From the NCBI GenBank assembly GCA_963169745.1, contig CAUJCU010000006.1, positions 1 to 47,979 of the forward strand: DNA of 47,979 bases, in the 5' to 3' direction. The stretch's first letter is position 1. Every line of letters starts with the position of its first letter. The position numbers and the translations under genes were made by a program. Of the stretch, positions 31,695 to 47,979 are shown piece by piece. Under the pieces are notes generated by a model that saw only the letters and a list, made by a program, of their open reading frames with translations, ran no database searches and was not told where the DNA came from. This DNA comes from Bacteroidota bacterium (GTDB taxonomy: Bacteria; Bacteroidota; Bacteroidia; UBA4408).

Positions 31695-32318
31695 CTACCG
31701 AAGCGTAATCCTATTTCGAGCCAATTCCAAAAAGCGGTTGTCTTCAAGTTGTTTTAATAACCGTGAAATAACAACCCTTGCGGTTCCTAATTCGTTAGCG
31801 AGTTGCTCATGCGTAATAACTAAAGTTTTTGATTGGGTTAACGTTGCTTTCTTTTGTAACAAATCTAACAAACGCTGATCTACCTTTTTAAAGGCTATGG
31901 CATTCACAATTTCAAGAAGCTCTTCAAAACGTTTGTGATACAAGCGAAAAATATAGTCAAGCCATTGCGGATATTCTTTAATAAATATAGGTACTTTCGT
32001 AACAGGAATAAAAAGAATTTCAACATCTTCTTCGGCCTCAGCCCTTACCTTGCTTGTTTCGTTATGTATGCCGCCTAAAAACGACATTATGCAACTCTCT
32101 CCAGACTTTATATAGTACAATAGAATTTCTTTTCCATCTTCTTCAGTTCTGATAACTTTCATCAACCCTTTCATAACAATAGGTATAGCATTGATGTGGG
32201 CATTCTCATTTAAAATAACACTTCCAGCTTTATAGTTTTTTTGAATACCATGCTCGTTCAGTTTTGCTATTAAATCGGGTGATGATTTGAATTCTGATAT
32301 AAGTTCCAGTTTTTCCAT
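31695..32318 (-). CDS. Crp/Fnr family transcription regulator B
   Basis: The 207-residue protein (from ATG 32318) has a beta-roll sensor (NYKAGSVILNENAHINAIPIV, GESCIMSFLGG) and a winged helix with recognition segment THEQLANELGTARVVISRLLKQLE. A cysteine sits in GESCIMSF, a position common to a Bacteroidota subgroup found beside rhodanese and sulfur genes; no Fnr-type cysteine cluster is present. It is unlike regulator A in sequence. An operator-like dyad lies directly in front of it. It is co-directional with the OsmC/rhodanese/DUF set, its likely regulon. Confidence 0.92.
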   Translation of the reverse strand: MEKLELISEFKSSPDLIAKLNEHGIQKNYKAGSVILNENAHINAIPIVMKGLMKVIRTEEDGKEILLYYIKSGESCIMSFLGGIHNETSKVRAEAEEDVEILFIPVTKVPIFIKEYPQWLDYIFRLYHKRFEELLEIVNAIAFKKVDQRLLDLLQKKATLTQSKTLVITHEQLANELGTARVVISRLLKQLEDNRFLELARNRITLR

Positions 32319-32443: not shown

Positions 32444-32557
32444 ATTCAATGTACGGATAAATTATTATCTTAAAAAGATATGAAGCCTGAATTTTAATAC
32501 ATAAATTTGAGTTTATTTGCAAAATCATAAATCACTATATGAAAGGGGCTTGAAAAT
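32444..32557 (+). repeat. Left copy of 114-bp direct repeat
   Basis: This copy is identical to 38305-38418 except at two positions (32454 and 32551), at a constant offset of 5861 bases. It holds a duplicated promoter -7 element (TAAATTTG at 32502-32509) and the ATG and first codons (32539-32550) of the zinc protease gene. The difference at 32551 makes the fifth codon TGA, so the copied reading frame ends at once. Less exact similarity extends some 20 bases further left. Confidence 0.95.
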
Positions 32558-32587
32558 TAGCTCTAAACTTTAGGAGTGCTCCTGTCA

Positions 32588-34030
32588 TTATTTTTTAACA
32601 AACTTACCTGTTGTCATTTTATGTTGTTGTTGGTCTGTGATTATAAAAATATAAAAACCCCTTGCTAAGTTACTAATATCAATTCCATTAGGCTCTGCAT
32701 ATAAGTCTGCTTGTTGCAATTGCCCCATACTATTATAAATATCAATTTTAATGTTTTGGGTTATACCTTTAAAATATAATTTATTGTCAGCAGGGTTGGG
32801 GTGCGCTGAAATTTTATAACTTAAATTTTCATATTCATTATTACCAACCATTGTGCAGTTTGTCACCCAGCTATCAGGGTTAGCAAGTTTAGCTCCGTAA
32901 CGGATAGTTGTATCGCCAACATAATTAGTAAAATCACCAACTGCAAAAAGTGTGTCACCATAAAAAGCAATAGAAGTTACAGATTCATTAGTCGTTGCAG
33001 AACTAAAGCCTGTTGCCAAGGCGCACCAATTTGTTCCGTCCCACCTTGCAATGTTTGTTGCTGTTTTTCCACCAGCTTCGCTAAAATGACCACATACATA
33101 TAAATAATCACCGTGCACAATCATGCGCACAACACCAGCATTAACCCCATTTATTCCAAAGTCTTGTGAGGCATCACCTAAGCTGTGCCAGTTAGTTCCG
33201 TCCCAGGCAGCTATATTATTGCCAGGGTTTAATGCGTTGGTTTGTTTGGTAAAATGGCCACCAACAATTAATTCGTTTTTGTAAATTACCATATCACTAA
33301 TTGCATCGTTAGGGTTTGGTATTCCTGTTCCAACCTTTACCCAGTTAGTCCCATCATAAACAGTAATAGCGTTTACATCATTTGGTCCAAATCCACTATA
33401 AAATTGACCTGATACATATAATTTGTCTTTGTATTTAACCACTTTGTTTAAATAATTTTCATTTCCAACAGGTGAAAATTCGGGTATGTTATAAACATCA
33501 CTCCATGTTTGACCATCAAATTTAATTAAAGAATTTGCAGCTATTCCAAAAGCAGAATCAAAAGTTCCTGCTAAGTAGAGTTCATTATCAATTATACTAA
33601 AAACAGCTCCATAACCATCAGGGATACCTATACCACCAGAACTCCAGTTTTGTCCGTTCCACACACCAAAATTATTTGCTGGAATATTGCCCACTTTTTC
33701 AAAACCACCTGTAACGTATATGTTAGAGTCATAGTTAATTATAGAATAGGTAAAAAAACCATTTGCAATGTATGGAAAATTACAGTCCCAATTAATTCCG
33801 CAGCTTAATTGATAAATAGAGTCTGATTTATATTCTGCTACTCCAAAATATGGAGTATTATCTATTTCCACAAATCTTCCAATCATAAACATAGAGTTTC
33901 TGGAACTATCAGAAAATAAATACCAAGGCATTTGCCATTGGTCAAACTCAGCCACTTTTTGCCAAGGTTGAGAAAATAATTTTGGGGCGACCAGCCCCAA
34001 AATCATAAATATTATTATTAATTTTCTCAT
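32588..34030 (-). CDS. T9SS-sorted kelch-like beta-propeller surface protein
   Basis: The 480-residue exported protein has a signal peptide (1-20). It has several repeats of about 50 residues of the type 'voltage-like readout': LYVSGQF/LYVCGHF followed by AWDGTNWHSLG, and similar, consistent with a beta-propeller. The C-terminal T9SS type A sorting domain is at about 405-480 (AHPNPADNKLYF, GFYIFIITDQQ). Binding partner unknown. Its ATG overlaps the stop of the large upstream gene by four bases, so the two are co-transcribed. It lies inside the repeat-bracketed segment, and its stop is only 30 bases from the left repeat. Confidence 0.87.
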   Translation of the reverse strand: MRKLIIIFMILGLVAPKLFSQPWQKVAEFDQWQMPWYLFSDSSRNSMFMIGRFVEIDNTPYFGVAEYKSDSIYQLSCGINWDCNFPYIANGFFTYSIINYDSNIYVTGGFEKVGNIPANNFGVWNGQNWSSGGIGIPDGYGAVFSIIDNELYLAGTFDSAFGIAANSLIKFDGQTWSDVYNIPEFSPVGNENYLNKVVKYKDKLYVSGQFYSGFGPNDVNAITVYDGTNWVKVGTGIPNPNDAISDMVIYKNELIVGGHFTKQTNALNPGNNIAAWDGTNWHSLGDASQDFGINGVNAGVVRMIVHGDYLYVCGHFSEAGGKTATNIARWDGTNWCALATGFSSATTNESVTSIAFYGDTLFAVGDFTNYVGDTTIRYGAKLANPDSWVTNCTMVGNNEYENLSYKISAHPNPADNKLYFKGITQNIKIDIYNSMGQLQQADLYAEPNGIDISNLARGFYIFIITDQQQHKMTTGKFVKK

Positions 34031-37000
34031 TTTCTGATTAGTTTGAATGATTCAGTGTTACCTTTATCTCCAGTGATTTTCAAAAGATATATTCCTTTTG
34101 AGATTGTAGATAAATCAAGTGATAATACTTTGTCGGTATTATTGGTCGTTAACGATTGATTATAAATTTCTCTACCTTCAATATCAATTAGTGATAAAGA
34201 AACCTTGTTGCTGAATTGCCCATTCAAATATACATTGGTAAGATTGTCGGTAATGGTTGGGAAAACCTTATTAGAATTATTTGAATTTGAAGTTTCTTTT
34301 TTAATGCCCACATTAACTGCAGCCATATCGAATTTAGTTACAAATACATCAAAGTCTGTCCAAAGGTCAAAAGTTGGGTTTGTTTGTGTTGAATTAATTA
34401 CATCATCATAAAAATACGCTTGTCCAGTAGGTGTCATTCCAGCATCAACCATTGGTGAATAGAAACAATCATTTCCTGTGTATCCTGTTACAAACAAATC
34501 TTTATTTTGAAAGCAAGCAATACCGCTCGGATAATCAGATAGAAGCGGATAATATACAGCCCAAGCTGGTAGATCATCGACAACACCACCTCCCAAGTAT
34601 GAAGCCCAATTTTTGTTATTGTATTTATCAATGCTAATTATTGCGCAGTCGTACTGGTTGCTATGACCTGAACCATAAACACCATTATAGCTTACATCTT
34701 GATAATAACAACCTGCCCATGTTGGTGTTTGGGGATTAAAATTAGTTGAACTACCATTCGAACCATAAAGAGCGACAGTAAGTATAAATACATCGCCATT
34801 GTCGTTTGCATCCATGTCTATCAGTCTTTCAAGCGGCATATCATATGTTTCAAAGTTTTGAATTGCAGCATTATCAACCATACTGTATGTGAGCACACCA
34901 CCCGTATTAAAACGAGCAAGATACAGTTCTCCTGAAGTGTGTGAATAGCCACCATTTGAATTACACACTGGTACACCGACAGCTGTAGTTGGTTCTATGC
35001 AAGAAACTGTACCGCCATACAAAGTATGGCCAGCAGCGTAAATACTGTTGTTGGAAAATTTCAACGATTGAAAATCTTTCAAGTATTGAACAGTCGTACC
35101 CCAAACCATTTTTTCTAGATTATCAAATTCCATGATAAAGCCACCTGCCATACTTTGAAAATAAGCAGAACCTGCAATCTCTTTTAATGGAAAATCTCCG
35201 TTGTTTAAGGGGTTGCCATTAAACGGCCCTGAATTTGATGTTTTTTGAGTTTCACCACTTAAATAAAAATAGTTTGCACCACTGCTTCTAAATATAGGAT
35301 ATGGTTCAATATCGTATGCTTTATCGTCAGCATTACTTCCAATTAATGTACTCCATGTTAGTGAGTTGTCAGGAGCGAATTTCATAAGGAAAATATCTTG
35401 ACCACCAGAATTTGTTGATTTAATAAAACCTCCTGAGGAAGAATATGTTGGAAATGAACCATTGGATGGTGGTGTATTACTTACAGAAATATTTGTACTC
35501 TTTGTATTGCCTGTTAACATTACTACATCCCCAGCAATACATATTCCAGTGGCTTTGTCATAACCGCTACCACCAATATGAGTAATTAATTGCATGGCTC
35601 CATTTTTCCCACAAGAACCATATATTGCATCTTGACCTCCATTATAACTATTATCCCAATAAGCTGATGGTGGTTGAGTTAATGGCCAATTTGGACTATT
35701 CGAACTAGCAGTTGTACCACCAAAGTATAAATTATTATCTGTTGGGTTGTACGTTATACATGTAAGGGTATCTGCATCAGTACCGCCTATATGCGTTGTC
35801 CAACGCCTAACCATATCATTATTAAACGAAATAATAAACCCATCTTGAGAACCAGAAATGGACTGTTGAAAAGGACCTGGATTAGAGTTTTGATAAATTG
35901 GAAAAACCGGTGAATTAGTTAACCCTGTTATATAAATATTCCCATCATCATCTGTAGTCATGGCTGTTGAAACATCATTACACCTATATGGAGTGCTTAA
36001 CAAGTCGGGTTGTCCATAGTAAGTATGATGAAAGATATTAGCTTGGTCGAAGTAGGTTGGTATTCCACTACATCCCGACATTTGTAATTTGCTCATTGCA
36101 ATTTTTGTTTTAAATGCCATGTCAAATCCTGTTAGCTTTATACTAACTTTATTATTAATTCCTATGGAATATTGGCCACTAATATTGCCTACTACATTAT
36201 ATCCGCTGGCATCAACCTGCCATACATTAGGTAGCAAAAAATATTCTTCCACACCGTTTGATGCAATGTGAAGATTTCCATCTTGATCTAAATATATACT
36301 ATCTGCTCCTTGAAACTGCATTTCTATTTTAGACTCTGGTGTTTCTTTTTGTATCGTGTAAAACATATTTAACCCTGCGTTGCTTAATCTAAATTCTACA
36401 TCAATATTTTTAAAAATATTGGGAGCAAACAACTTTTGATAATTATGCACATTCGTTGCTCCTGATGAGCATTGAGGTAAATAATAATTTTGATAATCGC
36501 GTGTTGGGTTAAGTGGAAAAATTCTCATTTTAGCTCCAGTGATAAGCATATCAACACGCTTCAGTGTATCAACATTGGTGGGAATAGTGTCATGATGAGC
36601 AAAGTTAAAATGAACGGTATCATTACTAAAAAATAATTGGGGACTGTTTAACGCGGAATAAAATTTTACATGATTTACTGTTCTTCCGTCTGTTCCAATT
36701 AATTGGCCTAGGTTCTCTTCAAAAACCAAGCTATTTGAACTAACCATATTGGTTGGCACGTCTGTTTTATCATATTTAGCTTGATCGTAGGCTATTGTTT
36801 TATATTGATAATAATTACCGCTTTTACTTTGACCACTGACATATACTACTCCATTTTTCACTATTATGTTTGTTGCCATGTTATCCACATTGCCATCATT
36901 AAAGCGTTGTGTCCATATGGAATCGCCATCTGTTGTATAGGCTAATGTTGCAAAATCTAAGTTCGACCCATTACTACTTTGTCCTGTTACATATATATTT

Positions 37001-38088
37001 TTATCTTCATCTAAAGTAATTTTTTGAGCCTTGTCTGTATGTCCATTATTGTAATAGCGAACCCAAAGTTCGGTACCTAAACTATCATATTTAATGGTAC
37101 AATAATCGTCATTCCCAGCACTGTTTTTTGTTTCGCCAGTAACATAAACATTTCCTTCATCATCAACTGCTAATGAGTTAGCTTGGTCGTTTTGGTTGGC
37201 TGTATTATTAAAAGTTTTTATCCATTTAACAATGCCTTGTTGGGATAGTTTAATTGTTTTAAAATCTAAACCTGAGCCTGTATTAGCATAAGTACCTGTA
37301 ATGTAAATATAACCTTGCGCATCTGTTACCGCTTGTGTTGCATGGTCAAAACCCACTCCTGTGCCAGTGGTACGAATGGTGTCTGTTGATGTACCGCCTG
37401 TAGTGTAGGTAATTTGGGCATAATCCCAATCTGTTAAACTATTTTGGCTACCTCCATTTACAAAAACATTTGAACCTATAATATCAATATCAAAAGGAAC
37501 ATCAGCCAATAAATAATTATATCTGTTACTCCATATAAAACTGCCGCTACTGTTTAATTTTATGGTAGTATAATCAAATAAAGTGCTGTTACCAATACTT
37601 GCACCTGTCAAATAAATATTACCTCCGTCAATAGTCAAAGCACTAACTAAATCAGCCCCGCTGCCTGTTCCATTATAAGTGTAGGTCCATAGTAGTGTAC
37701 CTGTACTATCATATTTTAAAATTAGGTAATCATAATTATTTGTGCTATTAGTATAGGTAAAACCGCCTAGTATAATATTGTAATTGTCATCAACAGCTAT
37801 TGTTGTTGCTTGGTCTCGATGATTACCTGTCCCTGTAAAAGTTGCTGTCCAAAGTGTGTCACCATTTTCATTGTACTTTGTCAAAAGTATATCTGCACCT
37901 GTGATGCTGTCAATATTTGAACCTGCCACATAAAGGTGCTTTAATGAGTCAATTGTTGTTGGTATTTTTATTACTGTGTCTTGCAACCCAAAGGCTGCTG
38001 TCCAAATAGGTGTTGATGCCGTTTGGGCTTGTGTTTGCTCCAATATAAAAAAGAGCAAGATTAATATTAATGAGATTATTTTTTTCAT
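34027..38088 (-). CDS. Large SBBP-repeat / DUF7948-like T9SS surface protein
   Basis: The 1353-residue exported protein has a signal peptide (1-21). An N-terminal set of propeller-like repeats at about 25-440 follows (patterns DTLWTATFTG, GTELWVRYYNN, IYLTGAS/VYVTGE), then a DUF7948-like domain at about 455-660 (FEENLGQL, YKLF-like QKLFAPNIFKNIDVEFR). SBBP beta-propeller repeats cover about 690-1240 (NIYITGLTNSPVFP, IGGTDADTLTC), and the T9SS sorting domain lies at about 1275-1353 (KVFPTITDNL, KGIYLLKIT). It is the first gene of a two-gene unit within the repeat-bracketed island. Surface display or adhesion is likely; the ligand is unknown. Confidence 0.88.
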   Translation of the reverse strand: MKKIISLILILLFFILEQTQAQTASTPIWTAAFGLQDTVIKIPTTIDSLKHLYVAGSNIDSITGADILLTKYNENGDTLWTATFTGTGNHRDQATTIAVDDNYNIILGGFTYTNSTNNYDYLILKYDSTGTLLWTYTYNGTGSGADLVSALTIDGGNIYLTGASIGNSTLFDYTTIKLNSSGSFIWSNRYNYLLADVPFDIDIIGSNVFVNGGSQNSLTDWDYAQITYTTGGTSTDTIRTTGTGVGFDHATQAVTDAQGYIYITGTYANTGSGLDFKTIKLSQQGIVKWIKTFNNTANQNDQANSLAVDDEGNVYVTGETKNSAGNDDYCTIKYDSLGTELWVRYYNNGHTDKAQKITLDEDKNIYVTGQSSNGSNLDFATLAYTTDGDSIWTQRFNDGNVDNMATNIIVKNGVVYVSGQSKSGNYYQYKTIAYDQAKYDKTDVPTNMVSSNSLVFEENLGQLIGTDGRTVNHVKFYSALNSPQLFFSNDTVHFNFAHHDTIPTNVDTLKRVDMLITGAKMRIFPLNPTRDYQNYYLPQCSSGATNVHNYQKLFAPNIFKNIDVEFRLSNAGLNMFYTIQKETPESKIEMQFQGADSIYLDQDGNLHIASNGVEEYFLLPNVWQVDASGYNVVGNISGQYSIGINNKVSIKLTGFDMAFKTKIAMSKLQMSGCSGIPTYFDQANIFHHTYYGQPDLLSTPYRCNDVSTAMTTDDDGNIYITGLTNSPVFPIYQNSNPGPFQQSISGSQDGFIISFNNDMVRRWTTHIGGTDADTLTCITYNPTDNNLYFGGTTASSNSPNWPLTQPPSAYWDNSYNGGQDAIYGSCGKNGAMQLITHIGGSGYDKATGICIAGDVVMLTGNTKSTNISVSNTPPSNGSFPTYSSSGGFIKSTNSGGQDIFLMKFAPDNSLTWSTLIGSNADDKAYDIEPYPIFRSSGANYFYLSGETQKTSNSGPFNGNPLNNGDFPLKEIAGSAYFQSMAGGFIMEFDNLEKMVWGTTVQYLKDFQSLKFSNNSIYAAGHTLYGGTVSCIEPTTAVGVPVCNSNGGYSHTSGELYLARFNTGGVLTYSMVDNAAIQNFETYDMPLERLIDMDANDNGDVFILTVALYGSNGSSTNFNPQTPTWAGCYYQDVSYNGVYGSGHSNQYDCAIISIDKYNNKNWASYLGGGVVDDLPAWAVYYPLLSDYPSGIACFQNKDLFVTGYTGNDCFYSPMVDAGMTPTGQAYFYDDVINSTQTNPTFDLWTDFDVFVTKFDMAAVNVGIKKETSNSNNSNKVFPTITDNLTNVYLNGQFSNKVSLSLIDIEGREIYNQSLTTNNTDKVLSLDLSTISKGIYLLKITGDKGNTESFKLIRK

Positions 38089-38304
38089 TTGTGATTTGTT
38101 TAATGAATGATTAAAAGTATAAAATTATTTTGATAATTTTGATATAAAATTGAGGTGTCAAGGTGGGTCGAAATGATTTAAGGTTGCAAAAAGGGTATTC
38201 GTTAAAATGGAAACAGTCGGAATGCTAATTGTGGTTGGGGTGCCTTTAGGAAGTTTTGGCTTTTTTATATTTTATAGTGTAAACCTATTTTAGAACAAGA
38301 CATT
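38089..38304. other. Intergenic region inside the island's right end
   Basis: No gene was recognised. It is the divergent space between the large surface-protein gene and the right repeat. No clear TAnnTTTG element for the leftward gene was found. Confidence 0.4.
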
Positions 38305-38418
38305 ATTCAATGTATGGATAAATTATTATCTTAAAAAGATATGAAGCCTGAATTTTAATACATAAATTTGAGTTTATTTGCAAAATCATAAATCACTATA
38401 TGAAAGGGGCTGGAAAAT
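38305..38418 (+). repeat. Right copy of 114-bp direct repeat
   Basis: This is the probable original copy, because it runs uninterrupted into the zinc protease gene that starts at 38400. It pairs with 32444-32557. The -7 element TAAATTTG is at 38363-38370. Confidence 0.95.
38363..38370 (+). promoter_or_regulatory. Putative -7 element of the zinc protease/rimK operon
   Basis: TAAATTTG fits TAnnTTTG and lies 29 bases before the ATG at 38400. No TTG was seen at the normal -33 spacing. The whole element lies within the direct repeat, so it exists twice in the window. Confidence 0.5.
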
Positions 38419-38840
38419 CCTTAAGTGTTATTGGGCGCAGAGAAAGGGTTAGTTTTCCTGAAATGAATTTGTATGATGTAGAGGCTAAAATTGATACCGG
38501 AGCTTATACTACAACTATTCATTGCCATGATGTAAAAGTTTGTGAAATTAATAGTAAGAGGGTACTTAGCTTCAAATTATTGGATCCTGAGCATACCAAC
38601 TATTGCAATTCTGAACAGATTTTTGAAAACTTCAAAATAAAAACATTTAAAAACTCATTTGGCGACCAAGAAGATCGGTACGTTATAAAAACCTTGATTG
38701 TATTGGGGAAAAGAAGGGTACGAAGCACCGTTTCACTAACAAGCCGAGCGAATATGCGCTATCCGGTGTTAATTGGACGAAAGCTTTTAAAACACCGATT
38801 TATAGTAAATGTTGCAGAAGAAAATATACTTACAAAATAA
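38400..38840 (+). CDS. RimK-associated ATP-dependent zinc protease family (RimB-like)
   Basis: The 146-residue protein belongs to the PF05618 family, which has a retropepsin-like fold despite its 'zinc protease' name. The active-site-like motif [11 protein letters not shown] is at 31-41 (Asp32, Thr33, Gly34), and [11 protein letters not shown]-like [12 protein letters not shown] appears at the C-terminus. Members are found beside rimK and linked to glutamate-tail modification of ribosomal protein S6. Here rimK starts 13 bases downstream. The first 19 bases of this gene belong to the direct repeat, so this is the gene whose 5' end was duplicated by the island. Confidence 0.88.
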
Positions 38841-38853
38841 CAAAACTCAAACT

Positions 38854-39741
38854 ATGAGAATAGCCGTTTTATCCAGAAATCCGAATCTGTACTCCACCAA
38901 AAGACTTATAGAGGCCGGAAAACAGCGTGGTCACGATATGATTGTTTTAGATCACTTAAAGTGTGTATTGGTTATTGAACAAGGAAAACCTCGAATAGTA
39001 TATGGAGGTAAGGATATTGTAGGTATTGATGCCATTATACCCCGAATTGGAGCTTCGGTAACTTTTTATGGAGCTGCTGTGGTGCGGCAGTTTGAACAAA
39101 TGAAGGTGTTTTCTGCTGTAGAGTCTCAAGCTTTGGTTCGCTCGCGCGATAAATTGAGAAGCTTGCAGTTGCTGGCTAAATCGGGTATTGGCATGCCTAA
39201 AACGGTTTTTGCCTCTCTCCCCAAAGATATAGATAATGTTTTGGAACAAGCCGGAGGCACTCCAGTAGTTATAAAACTGCTCGAAGGAACACAAGGAATA
39301 GGAGTAATTTTAGCAGAAACAAGAAACTCAGCGAAATCCGTAATTGAAGCATTTTGGGGTGTTGAAGTAAACATTTTGGTGCAAGAGTTTATTAAAGAAG
39401 CAAAGGGAGCAGATGTAAGAGCTTTTATTGTTGATGGCCAAATAGTAGGTGCTATGAAAAGACAAGGGGCAGCCGGTGATTTTAGGTCTAACTTACACCG
39501 TGGCGGGGTAGCTACTATAGTAGATTTGACCCCCGAAGAAAAAGCCACTGCAATTAAAGCAGCTAAAAAGTTAGGATTGGCTATTGCCGGTGTTGATATG
39601 CTACGCAGCAATAGAGGGCCTTTGGTAATGGAGGTAAACTCCTCTCCCGGCTTAGAAGGTATTGAGGGAGCTACTAAAGTTGACATAGCTGGAAAAATAA
39701 TTGAATATGTTGAACGAAACGAATTTACAAGTCAAGAATAA
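38854..39741 (+). CDS. rimK: RimK alpha-L-glutamate ligase
   Basis: This ATP-grasp ligase adds glutamate residues to the C-terminus of ribosomal protein S6. The 295-residue protein starts with [18 protein letters not shown] at ATG 38854. ATP-grasp segments are visible in [55 protein letters not shown] and the metal site [14 protein letters not shown]. The longer frame up to 38809 overlaps the previous gene and lacks family similarity. It forms an operon with the RimB-like gene. Confidence 0.94.
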
Positions 39742-45800: not shown

Positions 45801-47979
45801 TAATAAAGATGGCTTGCCCGATTTAGTTGCTACCAATCATTCAGACCAGTATATTGATTTCTTTACAAATAACCAAAACTCAAACAGCTTAGTTGTGTAT
45901 AATTCGGGCTTGTCTGTGATGGCTAATAACGGAAGCAACGGTCAAGCAGATGTTATTGTTTTTGATGCGGATGGCGATGGCGATGAGGATGTTGTAACGG
46001 CTGGCGTAAATGCTGATGCGGTTAGTGTTTTTATGAACAATTCGCAAAGTTATTTTAGTGCATCTCCTGCCGTTCATATAGCGAGTGCACGTCCATTCCG
46101 GTTAACTTCAGGTGATTTTGATGGTGATGGCGATATAGATATTGCCGTTGCAGACACCCTAGGAGGTAACTTTAATATTCTAAAAAATAATGGTGGTATA
46201 TTTTCAGTATTTGCCCAAAACTCTACTTATGCTGCTAATTTCATAGCTTCTGCTGATATTGACAATGACTTGGATATAGATTTAATTGGATTAAATGTTG
46301 ATGGAATCAGTGCAGCATTAATTAATGAACTGCCTTGTATTGTATATATACCAGATGCTAATTTTAAAGCTGCCTTATTAGCTCATAACCCGGTTATTGA
46401 TACCAATAATGATGGTGAAATACAATGTGATGAAGCCGATGCTTTTACTGGTACAATTGGAGTGAACAACCAAGGTATATATGACCTTACGGGTATAGAA
46501 GCATTTGTTAACATTACGGGATTGAATTGTAATTATAATAATCTTTATAATTTAGATATTTCCAATAATTTAGCTTTAACGATGTTAGCTTGTGGATACA
46601 ATAGCTTAACAAGCCTAAATGTATCATATCTTTCAGGTTTAACCTATTTATATTGTGATGGGAATTATCTGAGTTCTCTTGATGTTACAGATAACACTTT
46701 ATTATCTGAACTTTATTGTGGTGTTAACACAATAAGCTCACTCAATGTTTCAAATAACTCATTATTGCAAACGCTATGGTGTTATCAAAATAACTTAAGT
46801 ACTATAGATTTTACGGATAATTTGGCTCTTCAAAGTTTAAATATTTATGGCAATAGCTTAGGAGTTTTAGATTTATCAATGAGTACAAATTTGAACTTTC
46901 TGGATTGCAGCTCTAATAGCTTAACTTATTTAAACGTACAAAACGGTAATAATATTAACTTTAACACTTTTAATGCAGTAAACAATACCTTATTACCATG
47001 TATATTGGTTGATAACCCAACATTTATGTACAGCGTTTGGAATGGAGGAAAAGATGTAAGTGCAGCATTTAGCTTAAACTGTAGTTTAACTGCCGACTTT
47101 GCAGCTGATACCACAGTAGCTTGCCAGGGGCAAAGTATTGTTTTTACTAATTTATCAACCGGAACTTCAGTCAATACTACATATAGTTGGAATTTTGGGG
47201 CTGGAGCAAGCCCTGCAACAGCTACAGGAGCAGGTCCTCATACAGTTAATTATACAACTTCCGGTTCAAAAACAGTTAGCTTAACAATTACCGATGGTAT
47301 TTCAGACACCCAAACAAAAAATAACTACATCACAGTTAATGCAACACCAGCAGCCCCAACATTGGCTGTAGTGAATAACTGTGGAACATCAACGATAACA
47401 GCAACAGGAGTGGTAGGCACATTAAGCTGGAGCGATTTTGGCAGTGGCAATCCACGAACAGTTAGCTCGGGCACCTACACCGTAACACAATTCTTATCGG
47501 GCTGTACCAGCCCTAGCAGTAATAGCGTAACGGCTAGTCCTTTAACTATTCCGGCAGCTCCAACATTGGCTGTAGTGAATAACTGTGGAACATCAACGAT
47601 AACGGCAACAGGAGTGGTAGGTACATTAAACTGGAGCGATTTAGGCAGCGGTAATCCACGAACAGTAAGTTCAGGCAGCTATACGGTAACACAAACGGTA
47701 TCGGGCTGTACCAGCCCAAGCAGTAATAGTGTAACAGCTAGTCCGTTAGCTATTCCGGCAGCCCCAACATTGGCTGTAGTGAATAACTGTGGAACATCAA
47801 CGATAACGGCAACAGGAGTGGTAGGCACATTAAACTGGAGCGATTTAGGCAGTGGCAATCCACGAACAGTAAGTTCGGGCAGCTATACGGTAACACAAAC
47901 AGTATCGGGCTGTACCAGTCCAAGCAGTAATAGTGTAACGGCTAGTCCGTTAACCATTCCGGCAGCCCCAACATTGGCC
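42898..47979 (+). CDS. Giant FG-GAP / LRR / PKD surface protein, 3' end outside window (partial)
   Basis: An open frame from ATG 42898 runs without a stop to the window edge, at least 1694 residues. Order of parts: signal peptide (1-24); an Ig-like SbsA-type domain; FG-GAP/VCBS repeats with Ca-binding DxDxDGxxD loops at about 160-480 (for example ADMDGDGDLDIV); Ig-like domains (480-800); a second FG-GAP set at 800-1140 (ADLDNDGDIDLI, GDFDGDGDIDIAV); short leucine-rich repeats at 1150-1360 (LDISNN, LNVSYL); a PKD domain at about 1400-1475; then near-identical 68-residue repeats. The C-terminal sorting domain would lie beyond the edge. T9SS export and adhesion or gliding-related display are inferred. 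Confidence 0.85.
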   Translation, partial: MKRFLFLFPITALIFMGAYNSLFAQTSVQVLSVMPTPNQPDVSTSANVIFYFNKPVKRLPTNIFFPITSPRPRLFGSYYGLYNIFSNTGNGSSTYTYNYTQDFKPGERIRVSLPSATGTDNTTLNHPYQFEFSVAAGIGTARFTSHNITQNSKYLRSITAGDWDRDGLIDYAITSYSGGSLPAVEIVKNNGSLQFSVAASFYDSTGGSVAIASGDLDNDGDIDLVTAVPTANNKICFYQNGGTGNFTQEFSAWNTEAARNIQLADMDGDGDLDIVCSNPTTGRLFYYINTGAGSFSTRFNTNPVVINTITNINSFAIADFNNDGLFDVAIGRTTSGFIRIHYNTPATPGTFQAALAINPIGTNTELSELKTLDYDQDGNMDLVALKKNDNTVVLIKNNFPTQGAGGFTITQTLTLSNPPSAVEAADFDGDGDFDLYVGGSPAVYLQNNSSTFTITTNETGGSPNYICSADFDSDGDIDIIGDKASSMAAYENQEYIVSATSGPLYCAGTYGYFSASVSPGYWPTTNFTLQLSNDTGGFNTPVNLGNYTGNYGYSNYYFIPANTPTGTGYRIRWVNNLTGSTVVPSAAFTIYAKPIQFNVSGGDTICPTGFTSINLSGSQTGITYELYKNDTTLIATQTGDGFPLSFNNINQSGIYRITALNTPYCPMQMADSAVVVVSGVPLSVNSAIPAINALAAAYTTNISSILNGNVPVSSSSGTYFKIYGAQSGLKSGTYSLPVSNTMLFNPTNDFKPGEEVWVSHVSGTPGINCTMIPGFTYRLTTQAASAPANFNPVNNPNLQGTRFAGLTAADFNNDGQVDNAFIGFFEMGVGGFGVGSDSGLFYVCLNTGNGNFSSPQSISVGNKNLMAIDKADLDNDGDIDLILSYDSGVLIFSNNGVGGFTQTQDINLGSAVVDIAVADFNADGLLDIAAAKGSNGLVIVTNLGGQGFVPLTTITTGFNHRHIAVIDYNKDGLPDLVATNHSDQYIDFFTNNQNSNSLVVYNSGLSVMANNGSNGQADVIVFDADGDGDEDVVTAGVNADAVSVFMNNSQSYFSASPAVHIASARPFRLTSGDFDGDGDIDIAVADTLGGNFNILKNNGGIFSVFAQNSTYAANFIASADIDNDLDIDLIGLNVDGISAALINELPCIVYIPDANFKAALLAHNPVIDTNNDGEIQCDEADAFTGTIGVNNQGIYDLTGIEAFVNITGLNCNYNNLYNLDISNNLALTMLACGYNSLTSLNVSYLSGLTYLYCDGNYLSSLDVTDNTLLSELYCGVNTISSLNVSNNSLLQTLWCYQNNLSTIDFTDNLALQSLNIYGNSLGVLDLSMSTNLNFLDCSSNSLTYLNVQNGNNINFNTFNAVNNTLLPCILVDNPTFMYSVWNGGKDVSAAFSLNCSLTADFAADTTVACQGQSIVFTNLSTGTSVNTTYSWNFGAGASPATATGAGPHTVNYTTSGSKTVSLTITDGISDTQTKNNYITVNATPAAPTLAVVNNCGTSTITATGVVGTLSWSDFGSGNPRTVSSGTYTVTQFLSGCTSPSSNSVTASPLTIPAAPTLAVVNNCGTSTITATGVVGTLNWSDLGSGNPRTVSSGSYTVTQTVSGCTSPSSNSVTASPLAIPAAPTLAVVNNCGTSTITATGVVGTLNWSDLGSGNPRTVSSGSYTVTQTVSGCTSPSSNSVTASPLTIPAAPTLA
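47350..47979 (+). repeat. 204-bp tandem repeats (68-residue units)
   Basis: Units start at 47350, 47554, 47758 and 47962, exactly 204 bases apart and in frame; the array continues past the window. Each unit begins AAPTLAVVNNCGTSTITATG and carries a Cys pair 42 residues apart. Units two and three are almost identical at DNA level; unit one has diverged more (for example LSWSDFGSGN versus LNWSDLGSGN). Confidence 0.95.

Follow-up and report, generated by a model that had tools for sequence, protein, structure and literature searches.

A two-gene T9SS surface-protein module inserted between two copies of a rimB promoter in a Bacteroidota genome

A module of two T9SS cargo genes lies in the promoter of a rimB-like gene between two nearly identical copies of that promoter. 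This arrangement most probably arose by a duplicative integration that happened once, with help from the end of an IS3-family element. It has the look of one accidental event, not of a new machinery for exchanging genes, and no dedicated exchange system was found. The locus provides a well-delimited case in which a surface-protein operon enters the promoter of a core gene without harming that gene, since the duplication restores both the promoter and the start codon.

The repeat and the genes at the locus

The window is one entire contig (C6) of 47,979 nucleotides. Its only pair of long non-coding repeats is a 114-bp direct repeat at 32444-32557 and 38305-38418 (both on the plus strand), the copies of which match at 112 of 114 positions and differ at repeat positions 11 and 108, confirming the two mismatches given in the original prediction. 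In the right copy rimB has its working promoter and its first codons. Part of this copy aligns with the rimB promoter block of three congeners (TTTGCAT...TTTATTTGC), which marks the repeat as native to rimB. On the left stands an orphan of the same promoter; it ends after rimB codon 6, and its codon 5 is a stop (MKGA*). Joining the two flanks with the left-copy allele gives this same MKGA*. The left copy is unselected and decaying, and rimB keeps the intact promoter and start. The proposal that the module was inserted into the rimB promoter, which was duplicated in the process, is supported. The two mismatches may be the alleles of donor and recipient, for which reason the divergence of the repeats does not date the event, and the recent origin that had been read from this low divergence need not follow.

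A search of the whole genome (2.99 Mb, 24 contigs) returned exactly two copies of the 114-bp sequence. None of 60 relatives had a full-length match, and only pieces of 28-43 bp were found, in three distant genomes. A genome-wide dispersed element, which the original prediction had named as one of the findings that would count against it, is ruled out by these two results.

The insert carries two minus-strand genes that overlap by 4 bp. One (32588-34030) encodes a 480-aa T9SS cargo protein with beta-propeller-like repeats and a type A sorting domain (PF18962 / TIGR04183), and the other (34027-38088) encodes a 1353-aa T9SS cargo protein with SBBP beta-propeller repeats, DUF7948 and a type A sorting domain (PF06739, PF25778, PF18962 / TIGR04183). 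The TIGR04183 scores of the two proteins are 33.1 and 38.1 bits (cut-off 23), and their N-termini resemble signal peptides by eye. Since the genome encodes GldM (TIGR03517, 319.5 bits, above cut-off), a T9SS is present. These two genes are the only ORFs of 80 aa or more inside the insert, with no transposase amongst ORFs of that size. Also on the minus strand, a 3' UTR occupies 32558-32587 and an upstream region, alignable in part with the upstream regions of other modules, occupies 38089-38277. No other part of the contig deviates as much in composition as the insert, but this carries little weight because surface proteins often deviate. No known RNA elements were found in the region. Integration associated with a tRNA was considered and rejected, the only tRNA being 29 kb off.

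To the left of the insert is a minus-strand gene for a Crp/Fnr-type regulator (31695-32318; PF00027 and PF13545), and to the right are the plus-strand genes rimB-like (38400-38840) and rimK (38854-39741). The first of these had been called a zinc protease gene, but this name is outdated: recent work classes RimB proteins as retropepsin-like aspartic peptidases (PMC11957791, PMC12239564). The encoded protein scores 85.8 bits with PF05618 and 76.9 bits with the RimB equivalog NF052261, which is below the cut-off of 200, and by its domain it would best be termed RimB-like. RimK, a ribosomal protein S6--L-glutamate ligase, scores 382 bits with NF007764 (cut-off 331); its listed ORF starts at 38809 and relatives align from about 38854. 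The RimB-RimK pair was found in most of the loci examined.

The edges of the insert

The right edge of the insert is the outer terminus of an IS3-type element at 38302, 2 bp from the repeat. About 41 bp of this element remain as a left-end remnant on the minus strand (38262-38302; TGTCTTGTTCTAAAATAGGTTTACAC...), so that the earlier statement that nothing else lies between the repeats has to be amended. The remnant matches the left end of a copy on contig C8 of the same genome over 26 bp with one mismatch, and window shuffles gave 0 such matches. The element, assigned to the IS3 family on its rve domain, its two-frame organisation (by eye) and its termini, encodes an rve-domain transposase fragment and is present in several decayed copies in the genome. 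A 107-bp MITE-like derivative consisting only of the left and right ends joined end to end was observed on contig C19 (L168 2438-2544).

At the left edge, homology to the 3' end of a module in congener G002 (contig C16; L100 1-181) starts at 32560, 2 bp inside the insert. The left junction is the edge of the repeat itself, within 2 bp of where module homology stops. No IS end was found at this edge, where alignment scores were unremarkable.

The locus in relatives

In the congeners G001-G003 a nupC-type gene is divergent to rimB-rimK-nadB and no module is present there. In the source genome nupC is on contig C21 (L094 8462-9745), apart from rimB-rimK-nadB, and a separate rearrangement parted them. 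The Crp-type gene has a 74% ortholog in G002 beside the same OsmC/rhodanese genes, the whole group being located elsewhere in that genome. Neither a Crp gene nor a module adjoined rimB in 80 database-contig loci, gathered with RimK as the query, or in 19 further loci. The comparison of the locus across relatives, which had been proposed as a check on the insertion, therefore found the module absent from this site in all relatives examined; amongst these genomes the insertion is known from the source genome only, and the adjacency of Crp and rimB may likewise be genome-specific. The Crp-side flank was no more similar to the sequence upstream of rimB in the congeners than expected by chance. As this test was negative, the empty site of Crp, 114 bp and rimB is a reconstruction rather than an observed arrangement. 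Conserved upstream sequence marking the ancestral flank gave no signal in either flank.

Origin of the duplication

The arrangement is best fitted by duplicative single-crossover (Campbell-type) integration, to which we give about an even chance of being correct. We propose that a fragment carrying the two-gene module, the left end of the IS3-family element and at least 114 bp of the rimB promoter would have been integrated by one homologous crossover at the resident rimB promoter. Before or during this integration the far end of the fragment, lying within rimB codon 6, would have been joined illegitimately to the 3' UTR of the module. The product would read Crp, promoter copy 1, module, IS end, promoter copy 2, rimB and rimK. 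Homology between donor and resident DNA would begin at the IS end, and for this reason the right edge would be an IS terminus, while the left edge would mark the chance point of end joining. Under single-crossover integration an IS terminus is expected at the start of the homology, the opposite junction may fall anywhere, and the duplicated stretch should be as long as the homology that remains. A point against it is that the donor must already carry the module and the IS end upstream of rimB; the IS may have prepared this donor arrangement.

There is precedent in E. coli, where a duplication product was obtained in 56 of 60 clones and the 14 sequenced clones had duplications of 109-950 bp, explained by the authors as a single crossover with a donor that had been trimmed and recircularised (PMC3240628). 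As in those integrants, foreign DNA here lies between direct copies of the target, of 114 bp, and the event is reversible in principle; unlike them, it is a natural chromosomal event rather than one with a plasmid in a designed experiment, it has an IS end at the start of the homology and its donor is inferred (PMC3240628). Homology-facilitated illegitimate recombination similarly combines one homologous end with one illegitimate junction, but its usual product is a loss of resident DNA, with microhomology of a few bp, whereas here the result is a duplication. Repeats that are 98% identical should recombine at some rate, freeing the module. Reversible excision is accordingly a prediction of the repeat-flanked structure: rare RecA-dependent excision between the two copies should be possible and would restore the order Crp, promoter, rimB.

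The main rival is repair of a break in the promoter by a replication template switch, which would leave identical anatomy and which we consider possible, though unlikely. Synthesis would have run through a module and its IS end and then returned to a point 114 bp upstream, or a long staggered break would have been filled in with capture of that segment. Such repair can produce a target duplication of any length without a transposase, and the literature documents an IS that separates the two copies of a duplication while lacking a target duplication of its own (PMC11708052). The likeness to these IS-associated duplications is limited to IS sequence between two duplicate copies, since there a whole IS accompanies a large duplication and here about 41 bp of IS stand beside a 5.7 kb module (PMC11708052). 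Copying within the same genome would, however, have left a near-identical donor module. Within the genome the best matches reach 33% over 600 aa (contig C24), or 61% and 52% over short N-terminal pieces. It would also be a coincidence for the right edge to fall on an IS terminus. That same terminus, together with the IS3 element directly upstream of the C24 module, could point to IS3-family transposition, with the module in an IS-bounded or one-ended transposon. Since only one of the two edges is an IS end and 114 bp is too long, compared with 1-14 bp for the target duplications of most IS (PMC11708052), simple transposition fails and we regard this route as having only a slight probability. 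In this respect the original prediction, which held 114 bp to be too long for an ordinary transposition target duplication, is upheld.

The original prediction had preferred a cassette-like exchange of surface-protein modules, by recombination in trans amongst other means. Recombination in trans comes close to the single crossover proposed here, but a locus at which modules are recurrently swapped through the 114-bp repeats is improbable. In length and similarity the repeats suffice for homologous recombination, and the modules form a family in which recombination occurs (see below); against this, there is no third copy of the repeat, the other modules examined lack a comparable direct repeat around them, and no relative examined has any module, or an alternative occupant, at the site. 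An assembly or strain-mixture artefact, in which two haplotypes were joined via the 114-bp sequence, is comparably slight in probability to the transposition route. It is true that contigs end at module copies elsewhere in the assembly, C1 and C11 both beginning with the same 141 bp, yet the two repeat copies differ at two sites, the junction at 32557/32558 lies outside any shared sequence and would need its own reads, and the contig is otherwise coherent. Insertion as an integron-type cassette is the least probable reading and close to negligible. It is suggested by the attC-like hairpin elements that follow the modules of G002 and recur there in clusters resembling cassette arrays, but no attC-like element was seen at either edge of the insert, the array element is absent from the source genome, the tyrosine recombinases score under the integron-integrase cut-off (TIGR02249, 265 bits) and an integrase would not duplicate 114 bp. 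The earlier remark that no recombinase is present holds for the insert, but not for the genome, which encodes tyrosine recombinases.

The module family

The two-gene module is a dispersed family. Modules with the same order and domains are present on contig C24 of the source genome and contig C17 of G002, and both genes of the insert share with other T9SS cargo genes with SBBP repeats the terminal type A sorting domain; what sets the insert apart is its duplicated promoter context. Directly upstream of the C24 module, in the same orientation, is an IS of the same family as the remnant, hence IS-plus-module units exist. Two more module 5' ends form the starts of contigs C1 and C11 (L096 1-345, L097 1-345), where they break the assembly. 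These ends share 141 identical bp encoding the mature N-terminus and have a nearly identical upstream promoter, but their signal peptides differ, and from this mosaic pattern we conclude that recombination amongst modules takes place. No direct repeat comparable to the 114-bp repeat was found around the modules of C24, C1, C11, G002:C17 and G002:C16, a check that covered both sides for C24 and G002:C17, the other three being cut by contig ends. No module was found on phages, and plasmids had only distant SBBP proteins.

Sequences flanking modules are 91-92% identical between two species (L097 341-419 with L098 6099-6177, and L166 5803-5869 with L098 165-300), the RimB-like proteins of which are only 54% identical. 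Judged from these identities, recent transfer is likely. A broader proposal is that the two-gene T9SS modules are mobile cassettes in the genus, bearing shared attC-like hairpins or IS ends, that move between sites and species and are reshuffled by swapping signal peptides while keeping their bodies, the rimB insertion being one acceptor event of an active, repeat-assisted exchange; we consider this doubtful. The wider family, with its mosaics, its IS ends and the attC-like elements of a congener, suggests how Bacteroidota may diversify the surface proteins exported by the T9SS.

attC-like elements in a congener

In G002 a hairpin element and a second conserved element come after the modules on C17 and C16. 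The second element is present in about 30 copies in this genome, in same-strand clusters directly after the stop codons of HipA, MazF-like, ParDE and Fic genes. The elements in these clusters (L162 3424-9380, L163 2313-10970, L172 1808-3712) measure roughly 50-115 bp and stand 0.8-2 kb apart, separated by accessory genes that include toxin-antitoxin and Fic genes. The integron core is GTTRRRY, which is fitted by the GTTGAAT contained in the G002 elements, and the short form of the element folds as a hairpin. The clusters resemble a cassette array of the integron type, here in a lineage of Bacteroidota. The cut-off for an integron integrase was not reached, the nearest recombinases falling below it; tyrosine recombinases with a SAM_4 domain in the source genome (contig C16; L165 776-1978) and in G002 (contig C38; L164 5506-6582) are near but below the XerA and integron-integrase cut-offs. 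A search for the array element in the source genome was negative. The hairpin elements of G002 do not explain the rimB insertion, and they are a more novel lead than the insertion itself. The same element was also observed at 71-76% identity in G033 (L254, L256, L258), a distant relative from another family of the class, which suggests either horizontal spread or a wider system.

At the far end of the window the contig terminates within a 204-bp tandem repeat (47347-47978), the copies of which are 89-92% identical.
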